The notes under the pieces: model-generated
What the model was told of the DNA's origin: nothing
Database searches by the model: none
What the model saw: the letters and a program-made list of their open reading frames with translations, nothing else
Made by a program: the position numbers and the translations under genes
Origin: Williamsia serinedens
Lineage (GTDB): Bacteria > Actinomycetota > Actinomycetes > Mycobacteriales > Mycobacteriaceae
Length of the DNA stretch: 64,000 nucleotides
Direction: 5' to 3'
NCBI RefSeq assembly: GCF_024171725.1
Contig: NZ_JAMTCG010000002.1
Coordinates: 496,001 to 560,000 of the forward strand
Part shown: positions 37,756 to 44,612 of the stretch, one piece after another
How the letters are laid out: each line of letters begins with the position of its first letter
Numbering within the stretch: position 1 is the stretch's first letter

Positions 37756-39111
37756 TCAGCCTGCCCGATCGAGCAGTCGACGATGCGCCGCGGCGACGTC
37801 ACGTGCGAGCTCGTCGGCATCCGAGCCGATGGCACGGCCGTCCGCGACGACGGTTCTCCCCCCGACCCACGATCGGCGGATCGGCGGTGGTGAGCCGAGC
37901 ACGAGCGCGGCGACCGGATCATCGATGCCGGCGTGCGCCGGCCCGGTCAGATCCCACAGCACCATGTCGGCCAGCATGCCCGGGGCGATGCTCCCGAGGT
38001 CGTCACCGCGCCCGAGGACCCGCGCACCGCCGACGGTCGCCAGCCGCAGCGCCTCCCGCGTGGACAGGGACGTCGGCCCGCCGACGGCGCGGGCGAGCAT
38101 CAGCGCCATGGTCACCTCCTGCAGCAGCCGGGCGGATTCGTTCGACGCCGCACCGTCGACACCCAGCCCGACGACCGCGCCGGCGTCGAGGAGGTCCCGG
38201 GTGCGGGCGATCCCCGCGCCGAGCCGACTGTTCGACGTGGGGCAGTGCGCGACGGCGGTGCCGGTGCGGCCGAGTTCGGCGACGGACTCGTCGTCGAAGT
38301 GGATGCCATGGGCGAACCAGACATCGGGCCCTGTCCAGCCGAGGTCGCTCATGTACTGCAGAGGCGTGCAGCCGAAATGATCGGCGCAGTAGTCGGTCTC
38401 GTCGCGCGTCTCGGCCAGGTGCGTGTGCAACCGCACGCCACGGTCGCGGGCGAGGGCCGCGGACTCCCGCAGCAGATCGGCGGTCACCGAGAACGGGGAG
38501 CACGGTGCCAGCGCGATCTGCACGAGTGCACCGGGGGACGGGTCGTGCCAGCGGTCGATCGCCTCGGCGCTGTCGGCCAGGATCGCGTCGATGGGTTGTA
38601 CGACGGAGTCCGGGGGCAGGCCCCCGTCCTTCTCGCTGAGGTCCATCGATCCGCGGGTCGGATGGAACCGCACCCCCAGCGTGGTCGCGGCGTCGATCTC
38701 GGCGCCGAGCAGATCACCGGCGCCGGTGGGGAAGACGTAGTGGTGGTCGGTGGTGGTGGTGCACCCGGACTCCAGGAGCGCGGTGATGGCGCCGCGTGCG
38801 CCGGCGTGCAGGCCGTCGACGTCGATGCCCGCCCACACCGGGTACAGGGTCGTCAGCCACTGAAACAGCGTGTGATCGGCGGCGAGCCCACGGGTGATCC
38901 ACTGGTAGAGGTGGTGATGGGTGTTCACGAGGCCGGGGGTAAGCAGGCACCCGGTCCCGTCGAACCGCGCGGCGTCGGCAGGGATGGCATCGGCGCCGAC
39001 GTCCACCCCGGTGACCCGGTCGTCCTCGACGAGGACGGTGGCGGTGGCGAACTCGCGACCGTCGGCGTCCATCGTGACGACGGCGGCGTTCTCGACGACG
39101 ATCGAGGTCAT
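37756..39111 (-). CDS. Guanine/8-oxoguanine-deaminase-type amidohydrolase (451 aa)
   Basis: TIM-barrel amidohydrolase of the TRZ/ATZ group: metal motif PGLVNTHHHLYQW, HTHLAETRDETDYC, AHGIHFDDESVAELG and the late GLGVDGAASNES with the metal Asp. Matches the 8-oxoguanine deaminase/hydroxydechloroatrazine hydrolase type. In this operon it could make xanthine from guanine or urate from 8-oxoguanine, both feeding uricase. ATG 39111 overlaps the uricase stop by 4 nt. Confidence 0.85.
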   Translation of the reverse strand: MTSIVVENAAVVTMDADGREFATATVLVEDDRVTGVDVGADAIPADAARFDGTGCLLTPGLVNTHHHLYQWITRGLAADHTLFQWLTTLYPVWAGIDVDGLHAGARGAITALLESGCTTTTDHHYVFPTGAGDLLGAEIDAATTLGVRFHPTRGSMDLSEKDGGLPPDSVVQPIDAILADSAEAIDRWHDPSPGALVQIALAPCSPFSVTADLLRESAALARDRGVRLHTHLAETRDETDYCADHFGCTPLQYMSDLGWTGPDVWFAHGIHFDDESVAELGRTGTAVAHCPTSNSRLGAGIARTRDLLDAGAVVGLGVDGAASNESARLLQEVTMALMLARAVGGPTSLSTREALRLATVGGARVLGRGDDLGSIAPGMLADMVLWDLTGPAHAGIDDPVAALVLGSPPPIRRSWVGGRTVVADGRAIGSDADELARDVAAAHRRLLDRAG

Positions 39112-40016
39112 GTGAGCCAGGTCCGCTGCGGGATCCAGGCCGGCCCGGCGTCGGGTGCGTCGTCCCGGCTCACCGCGGCCTGGATGAGTCCGTACGGGCG
39201 GTCGTCGGCGTGGAACACCTCGTTGGGGTTGTCGAGGCCGAACGGTGACAGGTCGTAGACGAAGTGGTGCTTGTTCGGTGCGGACAGCCGCACCTCGACG
39301 ATCTCCGGATGCGCCTCGAGCACAGCCGATCCCATCGCGAACAACGTCTGCTGCAGTGCCTTGGACTGCAGGGTCGCGAACTGGGCCACCATGATCGTCT
39401 TGACGTCGTCGTAGACCGCGTCCCAGTCGACGTAGACGGTGGAGAACCGCCACTTCGCGACCAACGACGTGGCCATCACACGATCGGTCGTCGGCTCGAG
39501 GATCGTGTACTTGTCGGTCGGGAAGCCGTGGAACTCCGACCCGGTCGACTTGAGGATGACCAGATCGGAGAACCCGCCGATGACCCAGGTGCGGCGGGTC
39601 CCGTCGGAGTCGTCGACGATGATGTCGGCGGTGCGGGTCTCCTGGCCGCGCCGGACCCAGGTGTGGTCGTGCTCGGTGCCGTCGACGAGGACCCGCTGCC
39701 AGGCGTACTCCTCGATCTCGATGCGCGCACCGCTCACCGGGTCGACGGTGTCGACGAAATGCGTTGCCAGATCGAGCCCGTACTGCTCGATGGTGGCGAT
39801 GCCCTTCTCCTTGGCGAAGGCGTAACAGGTCTGTTTCTGCGTGTCGGTGGGGAGGACGGCGCCCTGGTCACCGACCGTGTACGCCTCGGTGAACGCGCCG
39901 CGCAGGGCCGTCCCGACGTTCAGGTCGCGGATCTCGTGCCGGGGCGTGTCCCGGTAGATGCGGACGACGCGGTTCTCGGCCTTGCCGTACTGGTCACCGC
40001 TCAGGGTGATCCCCAT
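39108..40016 (-). CDS. pucL: Urate oxidase, uricase (302 aa)
   Basis: Cofactor-free uricase, two T-fold repeats: MGITLSGDQYGKAENRVVRIYRD, PTDTQKQTCYAFAKEKGI (with the catalytic Lys-Thr region), ILKSTGSEFHGF and LSAPNKHHFVYDLSPFGLDNPNEVF. Converts urate to 5-hydroxyisourate with O2. ATG 40016 follows GAGGAG. It lies between HIU hydrolase and the deaminase, so the next two steps are encoded just upstream. Confidence 0.95.
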   Translation of the reverse strand: MGITLSGDQYGKAENRVVRIYRDTPRHEIRDLNVGTALRGAFTEAYTVGDQGAVLPTDTQKQTCYAFAKEKGIATIEQYGLDLATHFVDTVDPVSGARIEIEEYAWQRVLVDGTEHDHTWVRRGQETRTADIIVDDSDGTRRTWVIGGFSDLVILKSTGSEFHGFPTDKYTILEPTTDRVMATSLVAKWRFSTVYVDWDAVYDDVKTIMVAQFATLQSKALQQTLFAMGSAVLEAHPEIVEVRLSAPNKHHFVYDLSPFGLDNPNEVFHADDRPYGLIQAAVSRDDAPDAGPAWIPQRTWLT

Positions 40017-40030
40017 GGGAGACGCTCCTC

Positions 40031-40354
40031 TCAACTGCCGCGATAGGTGGAGAACGCGAACGGGCTCAACAGGATCGGGACGTGGTGGTGCCCGCCGGCA
40101 TCGGTGATCCGGAAGGCGACGACCACCTCGGGGTAGAACGCCTCGACCGCCTGCGCGGCGAACCAGGCCCCGGTGTCGAAACGGATGCGGTGGACGCCTG
40201 TCGGCAGGTCGTCGGCGAGCGGGCCGATGCGCCCGTCGTCGTCGGTGGTGCCGCTGGCGACCTCGGTGCCGTCGTCCGCCGTCAGGGTGACCGGGACCCC
40301 GACCGCCGGACGTCCGGCGACCGCGTCGAGGACGTGTGTGCTCACCGACGCCAT
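40031..40354 (-). CDS. uraH: 5-Hydroxyisourate hydrolase (107 aa)
   Basis: Transthyretin-like HIU hydrolase: STHVLDAVAGRPAVGVPV holds the N-terminal active-site His and ends in FSTYRGS, the family signature tetrapeptide YRGS. PLADDLPTGVHRIRFDTG and HHHVPILLSPFAFSTY are also typical. Hydrolyses 5-hydroxyisourate to OHCU. ATG 40354 shares one base with the stop of the OHCU decarboxylase gene. Confidence 0.93.
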   Translation of the reverse strand: MASVSTHVLDAVAGRPAVGVPVTLTADDGTEVASGTTDDDGRIGPLADDLPTGVHRIRFDTGAWFAAQAVEAFYPEVVVAFRITDAGGHHHVPILLSPFAFSTYRGS

Positions 40355-40881
40355 CAGCGCGCGTCCTCGGCCAGTTGTGCAGCCGGACAGATCATCCGCG
40401 ACAGGCGGTTCCGGGTGATCTTGGCCAGCTCGAGCCGCAGCACGCGACGTTCCGTGGCGGGGTCGTTGTGCAACCGCTGCCGCAGGATGCGCAGCAGTTC
40501 GGTCGCGGGCCGCCCGTCGGCGTGCACCAGGTACACGTGACCGAACATCTGCTCGTACTCCTTGTTCGCGATGCGGAGCTCGTCGAGCACGGCGGGGTCG
40601 GCACCGGTCACATTGCGCTGCTCCCGCGCCGAGCTGGCGTTCGTCGACCGCTCGCCGATGCGCGGGTGGCCGTCGAGCGCCTCGTCGAGGTCGGTCTCGG
40701 TCAGCTCGGCGATGATGAGGTCGGACTGGTCCAGCAGCGCGTCCTCGTCGCTGAACGGCCGTGCCGCGGCGACCCTCAGGGCCCACATCCGCGACGAGCA
40801 GCACGCGTACAGCGCATGCACCGCCTGCGTCTCGGAGAGCGCGTTGAAGCTGTCGATCCCTCGCCAGTCGGGACGTCGCAT
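40354..40881 (-). CDS. uraD: OHCU decarboxylase, stand-alone (175 aa)
   Basis: 2-Oxo-4-hydroxy-4-carboxy-5-ureidoimidazoline decarboxylase: FNALSETQAVHALYACCSSRMWA, LDGHPRIGER with the catalytic His, SSAREQRNV with the Glu-Gln pair, MFGHVYLVHADGRPATELLRILRQRL and ELAKITRNRL. It makes (S)-allantoin. Catalytic residues are intact, unlike the domain fused to the upstream permease. It starts 3 nt after that gene. Confidence 0.93.
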   Translation of the reverse strand: MRRPDWRGIDSFNALSETQAVHALYACCSSRMWALRVAAARPFSDEDALLDQSDLIIAELTETDLDEALDGHPRIGERSTNASSAREQRNVTGADPAVLDELRIANKEYEQMFGHVYLVHADGRPATELLRILRQRLHNDPATERRVLRLELAKITRNRLSRMICPAAQLAEDAR

Positions 40882-40884
40882 CGG

Positions 40885-42888
40885 CTACCGGCCGGTCCCG
40901 TCGAGCCGACCGATGTCCTCCAGGCGTCGCAGCCGAGCGGTCGCGATGGGGTTGGCGTCGGCGACGAGGTCGTCGAAACGGTAGTTGGCGATCTTGGCGA
41001 TCTCGATGAGCGCGAACGACCGCTCGCTGGTCGGTGAGTTCTTCATGCGCGACCATCCGTTCCTCAGGACCCGCTCGTAGCGTTCGGTCTCGCGCGCGCA
41101 GATGACGAGGGGGAACCCGAAGTGCTCATGGTAGGCCTTCGCGAGGTCGGTGACCGTGCCCAGTTCCTCCTCGTCGAGCACCACCAGGCCGGTGTGGTCG
41201 ACGGCCGTCGGGTTGCCCACGTCGTCCTGTGCGCCGAGGTCCGGGAACGACCGGATCAGTTGCAGCTGCTCCTCGTCGCTGCCGGTGAGCATCGCCTCCG
41301 AGAACGCGGCGCGCAGATCGTGCGTGGTCTCGAACGGGCGTTGTTCGAACGCTCGGTCCACCACCCAGTCGGTGCCCTGGACGAGCCCGCCGAACGTCGC
41401 GCGGAACGTCTCCCGGGACATGTCGTTGACCTCGGCGAGCCGGATGGCACCGCGACCGGCGACCGCCGGTCCCCGCGACCCGGTGTGGAAGAACAGCAGG
41501 TTCAGCAGGATCGCCGTGATCGCGCCCATCGTGATCCCGGTGCTGAAGGGGATCTGGAGCAGACCGGGGACCGCCTCGTCGACGCCGGGGAGTCCGGGGA
41601 CCTCGACCGGTGCGCCGTTCACCGTGATGGTCTCCGGCGCCACCGACTGCGAGAACTGGACGTAGAGGCCCATCGCCAGTGACGTGCCCGCGATGATCAG
41701 GTTGCGGTGGTCGGTGAAGTCGACCGCCCCGAGGGTCTGGATCCCGACGATCGCGACCGTGGCGAACATGACCAGCGCCGCACCACCGAGCACCGGCGAC
41801 GGGATGGTCTCGACGAGCTTCGCGGTCTTGGGGAGGAGACCCAGGATGATCATGATGACGCCGGCGGCCGCCACGACGAACCGGCTCTTCACCCCGGTCA
41901 GCCGGACCAGACCGACGTTCTCGGAGAACGCCGTGTAGGGGAACGAGTTGAAGATGCCGCCGATGACGGTGGCCAGGCCGTCGGCGCGGACCGTCGCGGC
42001 GATGTGCGCCTTGGTGATCCGCTTGCCGACGATCTCGCCCGTCGCGAACACCGACCCCGTCGACTCGACCGCCACGACCAAGAGCACGACGACCATCGAG
42101 ACGATCGCGATCACGTCGAACCGGGGCCAGCCGAACGCGAACGGGTCGGTGAAACCGACCCAGGGCGCCTCGCCGACGGCCGCGAAGCCGGTGTCTCCCA
42201 GGGTCCAGGCGACGAACGTCCCGACCACGAGCCCGAGCAGGATCGAGATGGTCGCCCAGAAGCCGCGGAAGAACCGTTGCATCAGCACGATCAGGACGAT
42301 CGTGCCGATCGCGTACAGCAGCCAGCGGCCGTTGCCGGCGTCGGGGAGTTTGGTCTCCGGATCGCGCGTCGCGTCACCCGCGCCGACCGGCAGCAGACAG
42401 ATGCCGATGATGGTGATCAGCGTGCCTGTCACGACGGCCGGGAAGAACCGCACGAGTCGCGCGAAGAACGGCGCGATGAGGAACGTGATCACGCCGGCGG
42501 AGATGACCGCGCCGTACACGGTGAGCAGGCCGACGCGGCCGCCCCCGTTGTCGTTGGCGATCTTGATGACCGGGGCGAGGGTGGCGAACGTGATCCCCTG
42601 CAGCAGAGGGAGGCGGACGCCGATCTTCCAGATGCCGACGGCCTGCAGGAGCGACGCGATGCCGCACGTGAACAGGTCGGCGGTGATGAGCATCGTCAGC
42701 GCCTCGGAGTCGAGCTTGATGGCGCTGGCGATGAGCAGTGGCACCAGGACCGCGCCCGCGTAGAACGCGATGACGTGCTGCAGACCGAGGGTTGCGAGCT
42801 TGCCGAACGGCGGGACCTCGTCGACCGGGTGCTTACGCGTGACGGCCGGGCGTGCGGCTGCAGATGGGTCGTCGGTGTTCGTCGCCAT
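40885..42888 (-). CDS. NCS2 purine permease fused to an OHCU-decarboxylase-like domain (667 aa)
   Basis: Residues about 20-480 form an NCS2 nucleobase permease with about 12 helices: GLQHVIAFYAGAVLVPLLIA, LPLLQGITFATLAPVI, VVAVESTGSVFATGEIVG and the NAT signature SENVGLVRLTGVKSRF. Residues about 495-655 match OHCU decarboxylase: FRATFGGLVQGTDWVVDRAFEQRPF, FGFPLVIC and ALIEIAKIANYRFDDLV. The catalytic HPDL is SFPDLG (His to Phe) and the EQ site is DH, so the tail may be non-catalytic. ATG 42888 follows GAGGGGAC. First gene of the purine operon; it likely imports urate/xanthine. Confidence 0.9.
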   Translation of the reverse strand: MATNTDDPSAAARPAVTRKHPVDEVPPFGKLATLGLQHVIAFYAGAVLVPLLIASAIKLDSEALTMLITADLFTCGIASLLQAVGIWKIGVRLPLLQGITFATLAPVIKIANDNGGGRVGLLTVYGAVISAGVITFLIAPFFARLVRFFPAVVTGTLITIIGICLLPVGAGDATRDPETKLPDAGNGRWLLYAIGTIVLIVLMQRFFRGFWATISILLGLVVGTFVAWTLGDTGFAAVGEAPWVGFTDPFAFGWPRFDVIAIVSMVVVLLVVAVESTGSVFATGEIVGKRITKAHIAATVRADGLATVIGGIFNSFPYTAFSENVGLVRLTGVKSRFVVAAAGVIMIILGLLPKTAKLVETIPSPVLGGAALVMFATVAIVGIQTLGAVDFTDHRNLIIAGTSLAMGLYVQFSQSVAPETITVNGAPVEVPGLPGVDEAVPGLLQIPFSTGITMGAITAILLNLLFFHTGSRGPAVAGRGAIRLAEVNDMSRETFRATFGGLVQGTDWVVDRAFEQRPFETTHDLRAAFSEAMLTGSDEEQLQLIRSFPDLGAQDDVGNPTAVDHTGLVVLDEEELGTVTDLAKAYHEHFGFPLVICARETERYERVLRNGWSRMKNSPTSERSFALIEIAKIANYRFDDLVADANPIATARLRRLEDIGRLDGTGR

Positions 42889-42974: not shown

Positions 42975-43535
42975 ATGACTCACGGCTGTAACGAACCTGG
43001 GGCGGTGGTGGGTGTGGTCCTCGCCGCCGGCGCCGGCACGCGCTACGGGTCGCCGAAGGTCCTCGTCGACGACTGGTTGACCCGGGCGGTCGGCGCGGTG
43101 GACGCCGGCGGGTGTGCACCCGTGATGGTCACCCTGGGCGCGGCGATCGTGGACGTGCCCGCCCCGGCGTCGGCGGTCGTCGTCGCCGACTGGGAGGCCG
43201 GGATCTCGGCGTCGGTCCGCGCCGGCGTCGAGGCGGCTGGGTCCGTGCCCGGAGTGGTGGGGGTGCTGATCACGCTCGTCGACGTGCCCGACGTCGACGC
43301 GGCGGTCGTGGCGCGGGTGCTGCGGTCGTCCGGGCGCTCACCCGACGCGGTGGTGCGGGCCTTCTACGACGGCCGGCCCGGTCACCCCGTGTACATCGGG
43401 TCCGCCCACCTCGACGCTCTGCGCACGACGCTGCACGGAGACCGCGGCGCGGGTCCCTTCCTCACGGCGCATCCCGGAGTGCGGGCCGTCGAGTGCGGTG
43501 ACCTCGCGACCGGCCACGACATCGATCGACGGTGA
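42975..43535 (+). CDS. MobA/MocA-like molybdenum cofactor nucleotidyltransferase (186 aa)
   Basis: MobA-like NTP transferase: VVGVVLAAGAGTRYGSPKVLVDDW (nucleotide-binding loop), VLITLVDVPDVDAAVV and RAFYDGRPGHPVYIG, matching MocA-type molybdopterin cytidylyltransferases. It probably makes the dinucleotide Mo cofactor used by xanthine dehydrogenase. It is divergent from the purine operon and converges on XdhC with a 3-bp gap, so the trio is a functional unit. Confidence 0.85.
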   Translation: MTHGCNEPGAVVGVVLAAGAGTRYGSPKVLVDDWLTRAVGAVDAGGCAPVMVTLGAAIVDVPAPASAVVVADWEAGISASVRAGVEAAGSVPGVVGVLITLVDVPDVDAAVVARVLRSSGRSPDAVVRAFYDGRPGHPVYIGSAHLDALRTTLHGDRGAGPFLTAHPGVRAVECGDLATGHDIDRR

Positions 43536-43538
43536 GGG

Positions 43539-44612
43539 TCAGGCGCTGTGCGACAGCGGTAGTCCCGACGCCGCCTGCCGCACGGCGGTGATCTCTGCCC
43601 CGACGGCCACCGCGATCTCGGCGGGCGTCTGCGCGCCGATGTCGAGGCCGATCGGGCTGCGCAGTGTCGCCAGCTGCGGCGCGGTGACCCCGCGAGCCCG
43701 CAGTCGGCGGACGCGATCGTCGTGCACCCGGCGGGAGCCGATGGCCCCGACGTAGCCGAGGTCGGCGTGCAGGGCCACCTCCAGGAGGTCGATGTCCGTG
43801 CGCACGTCGTGGGTCAGCGAACAGACCGCCGTGCGCCGATCGACCCGGCCGGCGTCGATCTCCGCGGCGAGGTGGTCCGCCGGGGTCGCGACGACGACCT
43901 CGTCGGCCTCCGGGAAGCGACGCTGCGTCGCGAACTCGGCACGGTGATCGCACACCGTGACCCGGAAACCGAGGAGCGTGGCCTGCCGTGTGACGGCCGC
44001 GGCGACCGCAGCCCCGCCGTAGACCAGCATCCGCGGACGAGGCGGATGGACGTCGACGAACACCGACACGGCGTCGGTGAGATCGATTGCGGTGCTGCGG
44101 CCGGCGTCGAGGACCCGCTTCGCCTTGTCGCGGAGGGCTCGATCGAGCTCGGTCGACCCGAGCGACCCCAGCAGGTCCGCCGATCGCACCACGACGGTCT
44201 CGCCCAGGCGCGCGGTGTCGGGATGAGCGACGACGGTGGCGGCCGCGACAGGGCGGTCCGCGGCGCGATCGGCGACAACCGTCTCGAGGTGCGGAGTGCG
44301 GTCGCGGGAGACCGCGCTCACCAGGACGTCGATGGTTCCGCCGCAGGGCAGGCCGACGGCGAGCACGTCCTCGGCGAGTCCGTAGCGACGCACCGATGCG
44401 GGCGCGCCGTCGAGGACGTCACGGAGGCAGGCGAGCACGTCGGCCTCGACGCAGCCACCGGACACCGATCCGCTCACCGACCCGTCGGGCAGCAGCGCCA
44501 TCGTCGTCCCCGGCGGACACGGCGTCCGGCCGGAGGTGCGCACGACGGTCGCGACAGCGATCTCGGCGCCGGCGCGCCAGTCGGCGAGCATGTCGGCCGT
44601 CACGTCGGACAT
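43539..44612 (-). CDS. xdhC: XdhC/CoxI-family xanthine dehydrogenase accessory protein (357 aa)
   Basis: XdhC-CoxI N-domain: VATVVRTSGRTPCPPGTTMALL, SGSVSGGCVEADV, VGLPCGGTIDVLV. The C-terminal Rossmann domain has MLVYGGAAVAAAVTRQATLLGFRVTVCD and LGYVGAIGSRRVH. Its known role is to bind the sulfurated molybdenum cofactor and insert it into xanthine dehydrogenase. It lies next to the purine operon but on a separate transcript. Confidence 0.92.
   Translation of the reverse strand: MSDVTADMLADWRAGAEIAVATVVRTSGRTPCPPGTTMALLPDGSVSGSVSGGCVEADVLACLRDVLDGAPASVRRYGLAEDVLAVGLPCGGTIDVLVSAVSRDRTPHLETVVADRAADRPVAAATVVAHPDTARLGETVVVRSADLLGSLGSTELDRALRDKAKRVLDAGRSTAIDLTDAVSVFVDVHPPRPRMLVYGGAAVAAAVTRQATLLGFRVTVCDHRAEFATQRRFPEADEVVVATPADHLAAEIDAGRVDRRTAVCSLTHDVRTDIDLLEVALHADLGYVGAIGSRRVHDDRVRRLRARGVTAPQLATLRSPIGLDIGAQTPAEIAVAVGAEITAVRQAASGLPLSHSA

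Follow-up and report, generated by a model that had tools for sequence, protein, structure and literature searches.

Why should a purine permease carry at its C-terminus a domain of the same family as the enzyme encoded, intact, by the next gene? This question was raised by a gene of Williamsia serinedens, found in a 64,000-nt stretch of contig NZ_JAMTCG010000002.1 (the window, which here means that whole stretch). An earlier note on this DNA had described the gene as an NCS2 permease with a C-terminal domain of OHCU-decarboxylase (UraD) fold whose active site is lost, and had proposed a regulatory or substrate-binding role, or a coupling of import to purine breakdown. A literature search of open-licence PMC papers found no description of a permease-UraD fusion.

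The fused gene and its surroundings

Profile searches bore out the reading of the gene as a fusion (Table 1). The permease body scored 325.5 bits with PF00860, against a cut-off of 27, which places it in the NCS2/NAT family, and it was above the cut-offs of NCBIfam TIGR03173, the pbuX subfamily (468.9 against 414.15 bits), and TIGR00801 (344.2 against 291.8 bits). The tail contained a UraD domain by PF09349 (114.6 bits, cut-off 24) and lay below the two NCBIfam equivalog cut-offs, TIGR03164 (92.2 against 96.25 bits) and TIGR03180 (38.7 against 139.4 bits). The open frame begins with the ATG at 42888, behind a purine-rich GGAGAGGGG. Within the W. serinedens genome, PF09349 matched the fused tail and the standalone uraD, two copies only, and PF00860 matched three proteins. 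Named relatives placed the window copy near Williamsia, with 84% over the tail for W. deligens.

Table 1. Features of the fused gene and its neighbours (window positions).
Feature	Position	Strand	Remarks
NCS2 permease + UraD-like pseudoenzyme tail	40885..42888	(-)	667 aa
Xan_ur_permease domain, aa 30-413	41650..42801	(-)	Pfam PF00860, E 4.8e-97
OHCU-decarboxylase-fold tail, aa 488-638	40975..41427	(-)	Pfam PF09349 OHCU_decarbox, E 8.2e-33
Phe548 at catalytic His67 position	41245..41247	(-)	alignment to zebrafish UraD
Asp564 at Glu87 position	41197..41199	(-)	alignment to zebrafish UraD
Arg637, equivalent of Arg161	40978..40980	(-)	kept in all fused tails read
ADANP motif, aa 643-647	40948..40962	(-)	beyond the domain, within the C-terminal extension
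Intact standalone uraD (HPRIG, REQ)	40354..40881	(-)	distant UraD lineage; starts 3 nt after fused stop
5-Hydroxyisourate hydrolase, uraH	40031..40363	(-)	PF00576, TIGR02962; start inferred from Met before domain
Urate oxidase	39108..40034	(-)	TIGR03383, 340.8 bits
8-Oxoguanine deaminase	37756..39117	(-)	NF006055, 652.6 bits; start approximate
MobA-like NTP transferase	42975..43535	(+)	divergent
XdhC-family maturation factor	43539..44612	(-)	

The NCS2 motifs QH, VAVESTG, RADG and FSENVG were all present in the window copy. These motifs hold the substrate-binding residues of NCS2 transporters, and the QH pair (helix 1), the Glu (helix 8) and the Asp (helix 9) were intact in the window copy as well as in the commonest fused variants. 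Beyond the UraD domain, the last A, N and P of the ADANP motif were invariant in 33 aligned full-length members, taken from the named-genome loci and the window; the tail of Rubrobacter radiotolerans had no ADANP motif in an 11-sequence alignment. A frameshift or assembly artefact was considered and rejected, since permease and tail shared one open frame in all 83 fetched family loci and in all but one of the 80 named loci, the exception (L178) being cut by a contig end.

The neighbouring uraD was found to be intact and 3 nt downstream, as the earlier note had stated. It is in the same reading frame as the fused gene, separated by one stop and one codon (40882-40887), and read-through would give a three-part protein. 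This same-frame relation held in 29 of 65 loci, which is little above chance. On the other side of the fused gene, the MobA-like and XdhC-family genes suggest a molybdenum hydroxylase nearby.

The tail has a UraD fold without the catalytic histidine

The tail was modelled by AlphaFold2 with 32 sequences (mean pLDDT 84.3). Comparison with OHCU-decarboxylase structures, a check that the earlier note had proposed, matched the model to zebrafish UraD (2o70; Z 19.8, rmsd 2.0, 161 aa aligned) and Klebsiella UraD (3o7h; Z 15.8), with the first unrelated chain at Z 5.3. In a full-length model (33 sequences, pLDDT 81.1, pTM 0.65) the body was nearest to UapA with xanthine (5i6c; Z 46.7, rmsd 2.8, 427 aa), with UraA also near and SLC26Dg farther (Z 33.3), and the last membrane helix ended near aa 468. 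As modelled, the tail is a UraD fold and the body a UapA/UraA fold.

In UraD, His67 and Glu87 are catalytic and Arg161 is a residue of the enzyme pocket (zebrafish numbering). Alignment to the zebrafish enzyme placed Phe548 of the window tail at His67, Asp564 at Glu87 and His565 at Gln88, giving a motif SFPDLG, compared with HPDLAG or HPRIG in active UraDs. The earlier note had read these changes as HPDL to SFPDLG and EQ to DH, and both readings agree with the alignment. The second hinges on a short gap, as the Glu87 column was gapped for the window sequence in two alignments; relatives aligned without a gap (e.g. L202, L213) show Asp in this column. An alignment slip hiding the His was also considered. 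Some relatives have FHDLG, with a His one position later (14 of the 80 named loci; mycobacterial tails such as L160, L164 and L188). The slip was rejected, since the window has FPDLG and in the FHDLG relatives the replaced column is that of Pro68. Together with the survey below, the residues make it well supported, at the level of sequence, that the tail would be a catalytically dead pseudoenzyme of UraD fold.

The histidine is missing from every permease fusion read

A family search with the tail covered 401 genomes, 112 of which had a match at E 1e-6. There were 94 tail matches in open frames of at least 640 aa, all with E 5.3e-17 or better, and the architecture, which the earlier note had called unusual, is not so within this group. 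Of these loci, 83 were fetched and read and 11 were left out. The His site was occupied by Phe in 55 and by Tyr in 28, and by His in none of the 83, and every one of the 66 standalone UraDs in the 83 loci and the G431 locus retained His. A standalone uraD was present on the same strand, within the fetched stretch, in 65 of the 83 loci. In genome G431 the fused gene survives only as a broken piece (L116, 3929-4258), next to an intact uraD and uricase.

Named genomes were scanned with an 11-sequence alignment as query. Among the best 80 of 457 relatives, the His site was Phe in 64 and Tyr in 16, the Glu87 site was Asp in all 80 and the Arg161 site Arg in all 80. The 62 non-permease UraDs in the same loci all had His, Glu and Arg at these sites. 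Actinobacterial hosts of the fusion included Gordonia, Williamsia, Mycobacterium, Tsukamurella, Segniliparus and Kribbella, together with Nocardioides, Geodermatophilus, Pseudonocardia and Microbacteriaceae; the fusion was also carried on a plasmid of Rhodococcus qingshengii. Pseudomonadota with the fusion among the best 80 of 457 were Solimonas, Lichenicoccus and Amaricoccus. One bin labelled Acidobacteria had the fusion as well; its tail grouped among mycobacterial tails in the tree, and the label may reflect a binning error.

Wider searches gave the same pattern. At class level, PF09349 was found in 188 of 394 genomes; 30 loci among the matches listed and 20 chosen regions, mostly long frames, were read, and the chosen regions yielded three more permease fusions (L117-L119), all with Tyr. 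At phylum level a match was found in 54 of 396 genomes, and genomes of a Rubrobacter type, of which R. radiotolerans is a named example, were added from the fetched loci. Among the Rubrobacter-type rows, some of which represent one gene fetched twice, 19 permease-fused rows all had Tyr and 40 other rows had His, with one row giving no letters. In Pseudomonadota, 100 of 349 genomes had a match; 30 loci were read, leaving out weaker matches. All 29 further non-permease UraDs from these loci kept His, Glu and Arg, and Solimonas, the starting genome, supplied the sole permease fusion in the 30 loci.

The sequences were pooled with one representative per distinct core, pieces from one genome being merged only if their cores were identical. 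Sequences shorter than 120 residues, including an out-of-frame row (L225), were omitted, and the cut tail of L178 was counted by hand as fused. The position of His67 was Phe in 95 and Tyr in 56 of the 151 distinct fused cores, and His in none; that of Glu87 was Asp in 142, Glu in seven and Ala in two; Arg161 was kept in all 151. The four residues His, Glu, Gln and Arg were present in all 175 distinct non-permease UraD cores. Since the fused tails form a single clade, the loss of His may be one event that was kept, and the 151 cores do not amount to 151 independent tests. The loss is nevertheless no local oddity of the window; it holds in every permease-fused copy read. The earlier note had held that the idea of a pseudoenzyme would fail if homologues restored the His and Glu. 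None of the 151 cores restores the His, and Glu is present in the seven, which were Rubrobacter-type cores and at least L119. In group g7, which is probably Corynebacterium, the Glu87 column reads Asp, Ala or Gly depending on the alignment.

UraDs fused to other proteins served as a control. His, Glu and Arg were kept in UraDs joined to uricase (L263, L269), allantoicase (L124, which is the same gene as L019, L125 and L032), HIU hydrolase (L272, L283, L204) and an M20 peptidase (L294, L296, L300). These enzyme fusions made up 12 of 18 scanned proteins, L019 and L124 being one gene; the other six were long frames with PF09349 alone and were not counted. His was also kept where permease and uraD are separate adjacent genes, as in Deinococcus and Priestia. 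Because the non-permease fusions keep these residues, fusion per se does not cost the His, and this explanation was rejected. The collection amounts to a natural experiment: in all fusions examined, one and the same domain retains its catalytic residues when joined to a soluble enzyme and is without the His when joined to a permease.

Origin of the tail and selection on it

A tree of the tails was built from 146 columns only, with the three trait columns masked, and many of its forks stayed open. All 48 non-redundant fused tails fell on one side of a branch with SH-aLRT 99. The clade sits inside the Rubrobacter-type HPDLAG UraDs, and the HPRIG uraD of the window belongs to a remote clade. A recent duplication of the downstream uraD was therefore rejected as the source of the tail. 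Which UraD lineage adjoins the tail differs from group to group.

A permease tree of 33 rows placed the bodies of two Rubrobacter-type fusions, L252 (1798-3735) and L260 (3872-5782), with unfused permeases (fork 97), though their tails are in the common clade, which is thus found on two permease lineages. Two histories would explain this: transfer of the tail to a second permease, or another fusion event beside the same uraD lineage. In L258 and in L259 (3703-5640; outside the permease tree), an active HPDLAG uraD sits, as judged from its open frame, directly behind the fused stop, much as in the window. A simple reading is that uraD was duplicated in tandem and that the first copy was then fused.

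The tail was found to be under purifying selection about the same as that on the permease. Median dN/dS was 0.303 for the tail and 0.305 for the permease (2050 pairs), and 0.265 for the downstream uraD (1500 pairs); these are Nei-Gojobori values for close pairs, and because synonymous sites approach saturation they are informative only relative to one another. Contrary to equal constraint, the g7 tail gave a higher value (0.209, 45 pairs) than the g7 permease (0.122, 52 pairs).

Several polar columns that are invariant in 49 active UraDs, namely His67, Glu87, Gln88, Ser84 and Asn108, were lost or loosened in 66 non-redundant fused tails. Other columns were kept: Phe115, Arg161 and Glu146 in all 66, and Tyr111 in 65. 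Newly fixed columns appeared as well, with Arg in 64 of 66 at Arg526 of the window, Gly in 61 of 66 at Gly611, and Gln in 61 of 66 at the column occupied by Ser530 in the window copy.

A possible control part of the permease, or a structural one

We propose, with a probability of roughly one half, that the tail, a dead UraD fold, now serves an NCS2 permease of the xanthine/urate type as a permanent cytosolic control element. In a Rubrobacter-like ancestor, a permease gene would have been fused to a uraD copy lying next to it. An aromatic residue would then have taken the place of the catalytic His, and the domain would have been retained for its use to the permease. From the cytosol, on which side the tail presumably lies given the known topology of NCS2 proteins, it may act on the elevator movement of the permease or on its dimer, while the old pocket, with the aromatic residue and the kept Arg, may read a small purine-like ligand. 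Such a mode of action would resemble that of the STAS tail of SLC26 transporters. The cytosolic side, the regulation, the ligand binding, the dimer contact and the order of events are what we infer; a purine-sensing pocket is plausible because, among the pocket sites seen, only an aromatic residue stands at one and an Arg at another. A regulatory or binding pseudo-domain, which the earlier note had put forward, is supported as the likely role. If the tail does sense a ligand, a retired pathway enzyme would have given a nutrient transporter feedback control of its own.

More tentatively, and with rather less likelihood than the proposal itself, the fused proteins may represent a widespread actinobacterial class of transporter gated by a pseudoenzyme sensor. 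In such a class the dead catabolic domain would read a cytosolic purine or ureide and set the rate of its own uptake, as an NCS2 counterpart of the SLC26-STAS arrangement that is transferable between permease lineages.

The tail could instead be purely structural: it would help the permease to fold, to dimerise or to stay stable without binding any ligand, and the aromatic residue would only fill the old pocket. We regard this as a possible though less likely account. Phe and Tyr alone occur at the His site, as core packing would predict; the new conserved residues and the ADANP extension could contact the permease body; and the tail persists without the pathway. The retention of Arg161 in 151 of 151 cores, however, is more than packing would seem to need, though this is not decisive.

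Relation to the urate pathway

The earlier note had also suggested that the tail couples purine import to downstream decarboxylation, as a metabolic channel. The tail would here tether UraD, uricase or UraH at the permease, and imported urate would be passed to the enzymes. The gene order permease-uraD-uraH-uricase and the adjacent uraD in 65 of 83 loci are consistent with such a role. Excerpts of two reports describe the M. smegmatis xanthine/uracil permease Msmeg_1293 as induced in nitrogen limitation, and its number precedes those of genes for OHCU decarboxylase, transthyretin, uricase and guanine deaminase (PMC4222082, PMC4617892). The co-induction of this like-ordered gene set, as given in the excerpt of PMC4617892, would also favour a channel. 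An arginine phosphosite, R475, is listed for Msmeg_1293 in part of a further report (PMC9604228); if this protein has the tail, R475 would fall near the tail start.

The 18 genomes that have a fused copy but whose fetched stretch shows no standalone uraD were searched for PF01014, PF00576 and PF09349. In all 12 g7 genomes, which are every g7 genome with a tail match in the family search, no PF01014 uricase (HpxO, HpyO and PuuD are outside this profile search) and no PF00576 HIU hydrolase was found, and PF09349 matched the fused copy only. The other six genomes all encode HIU hydrolase and one or more additional UraDs, and one of them also a PF01014 uricase. Corynebacterium glutamicum, taken as a control, had a PF09349 copy, known from the domain match alone, and no PF01014 or PF00576. 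The g7 neighbours were a TPP enzyme and an MFS transporter in one genome and a pyruvate-formate-lyase-like protein in another. In Kribbella the fused gene adjoins pucR and a gene for a xanthine-dehydrogenase-type FAD/iron-sulphur protein, and in Nocardioides it adjoins a xanthine-dehydrogenase-type gene. No Pfam family matched the neighbour proteins in L114 and L211, and one neighbour in Amaricoccus (L209) was transglutaminase-like.

Judged by gene content, INDEPENDENCE from the pathway holds in some genomes: the tail follows the permease, not urate breakdown. For this reason the coupling of import to decarboxylation is unsupported. A channel is made improbable by the 12 g7 genomes, which have none of the partners, and by the Kribbella and Nocardioides copies. 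Moreover, there is no fixed partner, because the UraD beside the tail varies in lineage between groups. A link to the pathway still has to be reckoned with in the commonest arrangement, because the gene directly precedes uraD in 65 of 83 loci.

It is very unlikely that the tail is still an enzyme, for the old reaction or a new one, with Tyr or Phe and Asp replacing His and Glu. The fold and Arg161 are kept, and seven distinct cores keep Glu87; because of these seven, and because the Glu87 column of g7 is uncertain, residual chemistry is possible for some tails. However, in 95 of 151 cores the His site is Phe, a residue without an acid-base group; the sites of Glu, Gln, Ser and Asn are variable; and 65 of 83 loci encode an intact UraD beside the tail. 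Least probable of all is a neutral relic of an old fusion that is being lost, which would fit the one genome with a broken remnant only (G431) but not the purifying selection like that on the permease, the newly conserved columns, or retention from Rubrobacter-type genomes to Actinomycetes, g7 and Pseudomonadota.

Comparison with known systems

The control part proposed here has likenesses to several known systems. With UraD (PF09349; 2o70, 3o7h) the tail shares the fold and keeps Arg161, Tyr111, Phe115 and Glu146; unlike UraD, it has Phe or Tyr for His67, mostly Asp for Glu87, a variable residue for Gln88, the attachment to a permease and the ADANP extension. Other UraD fusions likewise join UraD to another enzyme, mostly one of purine breakdown, but they keep all three checked catalytic-site residues. 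The body resembles the NCS2/NAT permeases UapA, UraA and PbuX (TIGR03173) in fold, family score and conserved motifs, and differs by the folded C-terminal domain of the fused protein; several prokaryotic NAT members are described, in the excerpt of PMC6597760, as practically tail-less.

In SLC26 transporters the C-terminal STAS domain has a role in transport control. SLC26/SulP proteins with this domain, such as SLC26Dg, have a related body fold and a folded cytosolic domain at the C-terminus, whereas the tail described here is OHCU_decarbox by sequence and fold, not STAS. The comparison is one of how the proteins may work only.

Two minor observations concern single residues and annotation. 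At the FSENVG motif of helix 10, the NAT signature starts with Glu in the window copy and most other fused permeases, and with Gln in all 14 unfused permeases seen; the Glu may alter substrate choice. A change from Gln to Glu was rejected as a strict mark of fusion, as Gln occurs in the fusions of g7, Lolliginicoccus, Amaricoccus and some Rubrobacter types, and Gly in one Rubrobacter type. On a plasmid of R. radiotolerans (L137, 5001-6998), the fused protein WP_084264147.1 has Tyr in place of the His and carries the annotation uraD/OHCU decarboxylase, which is likely a database error.
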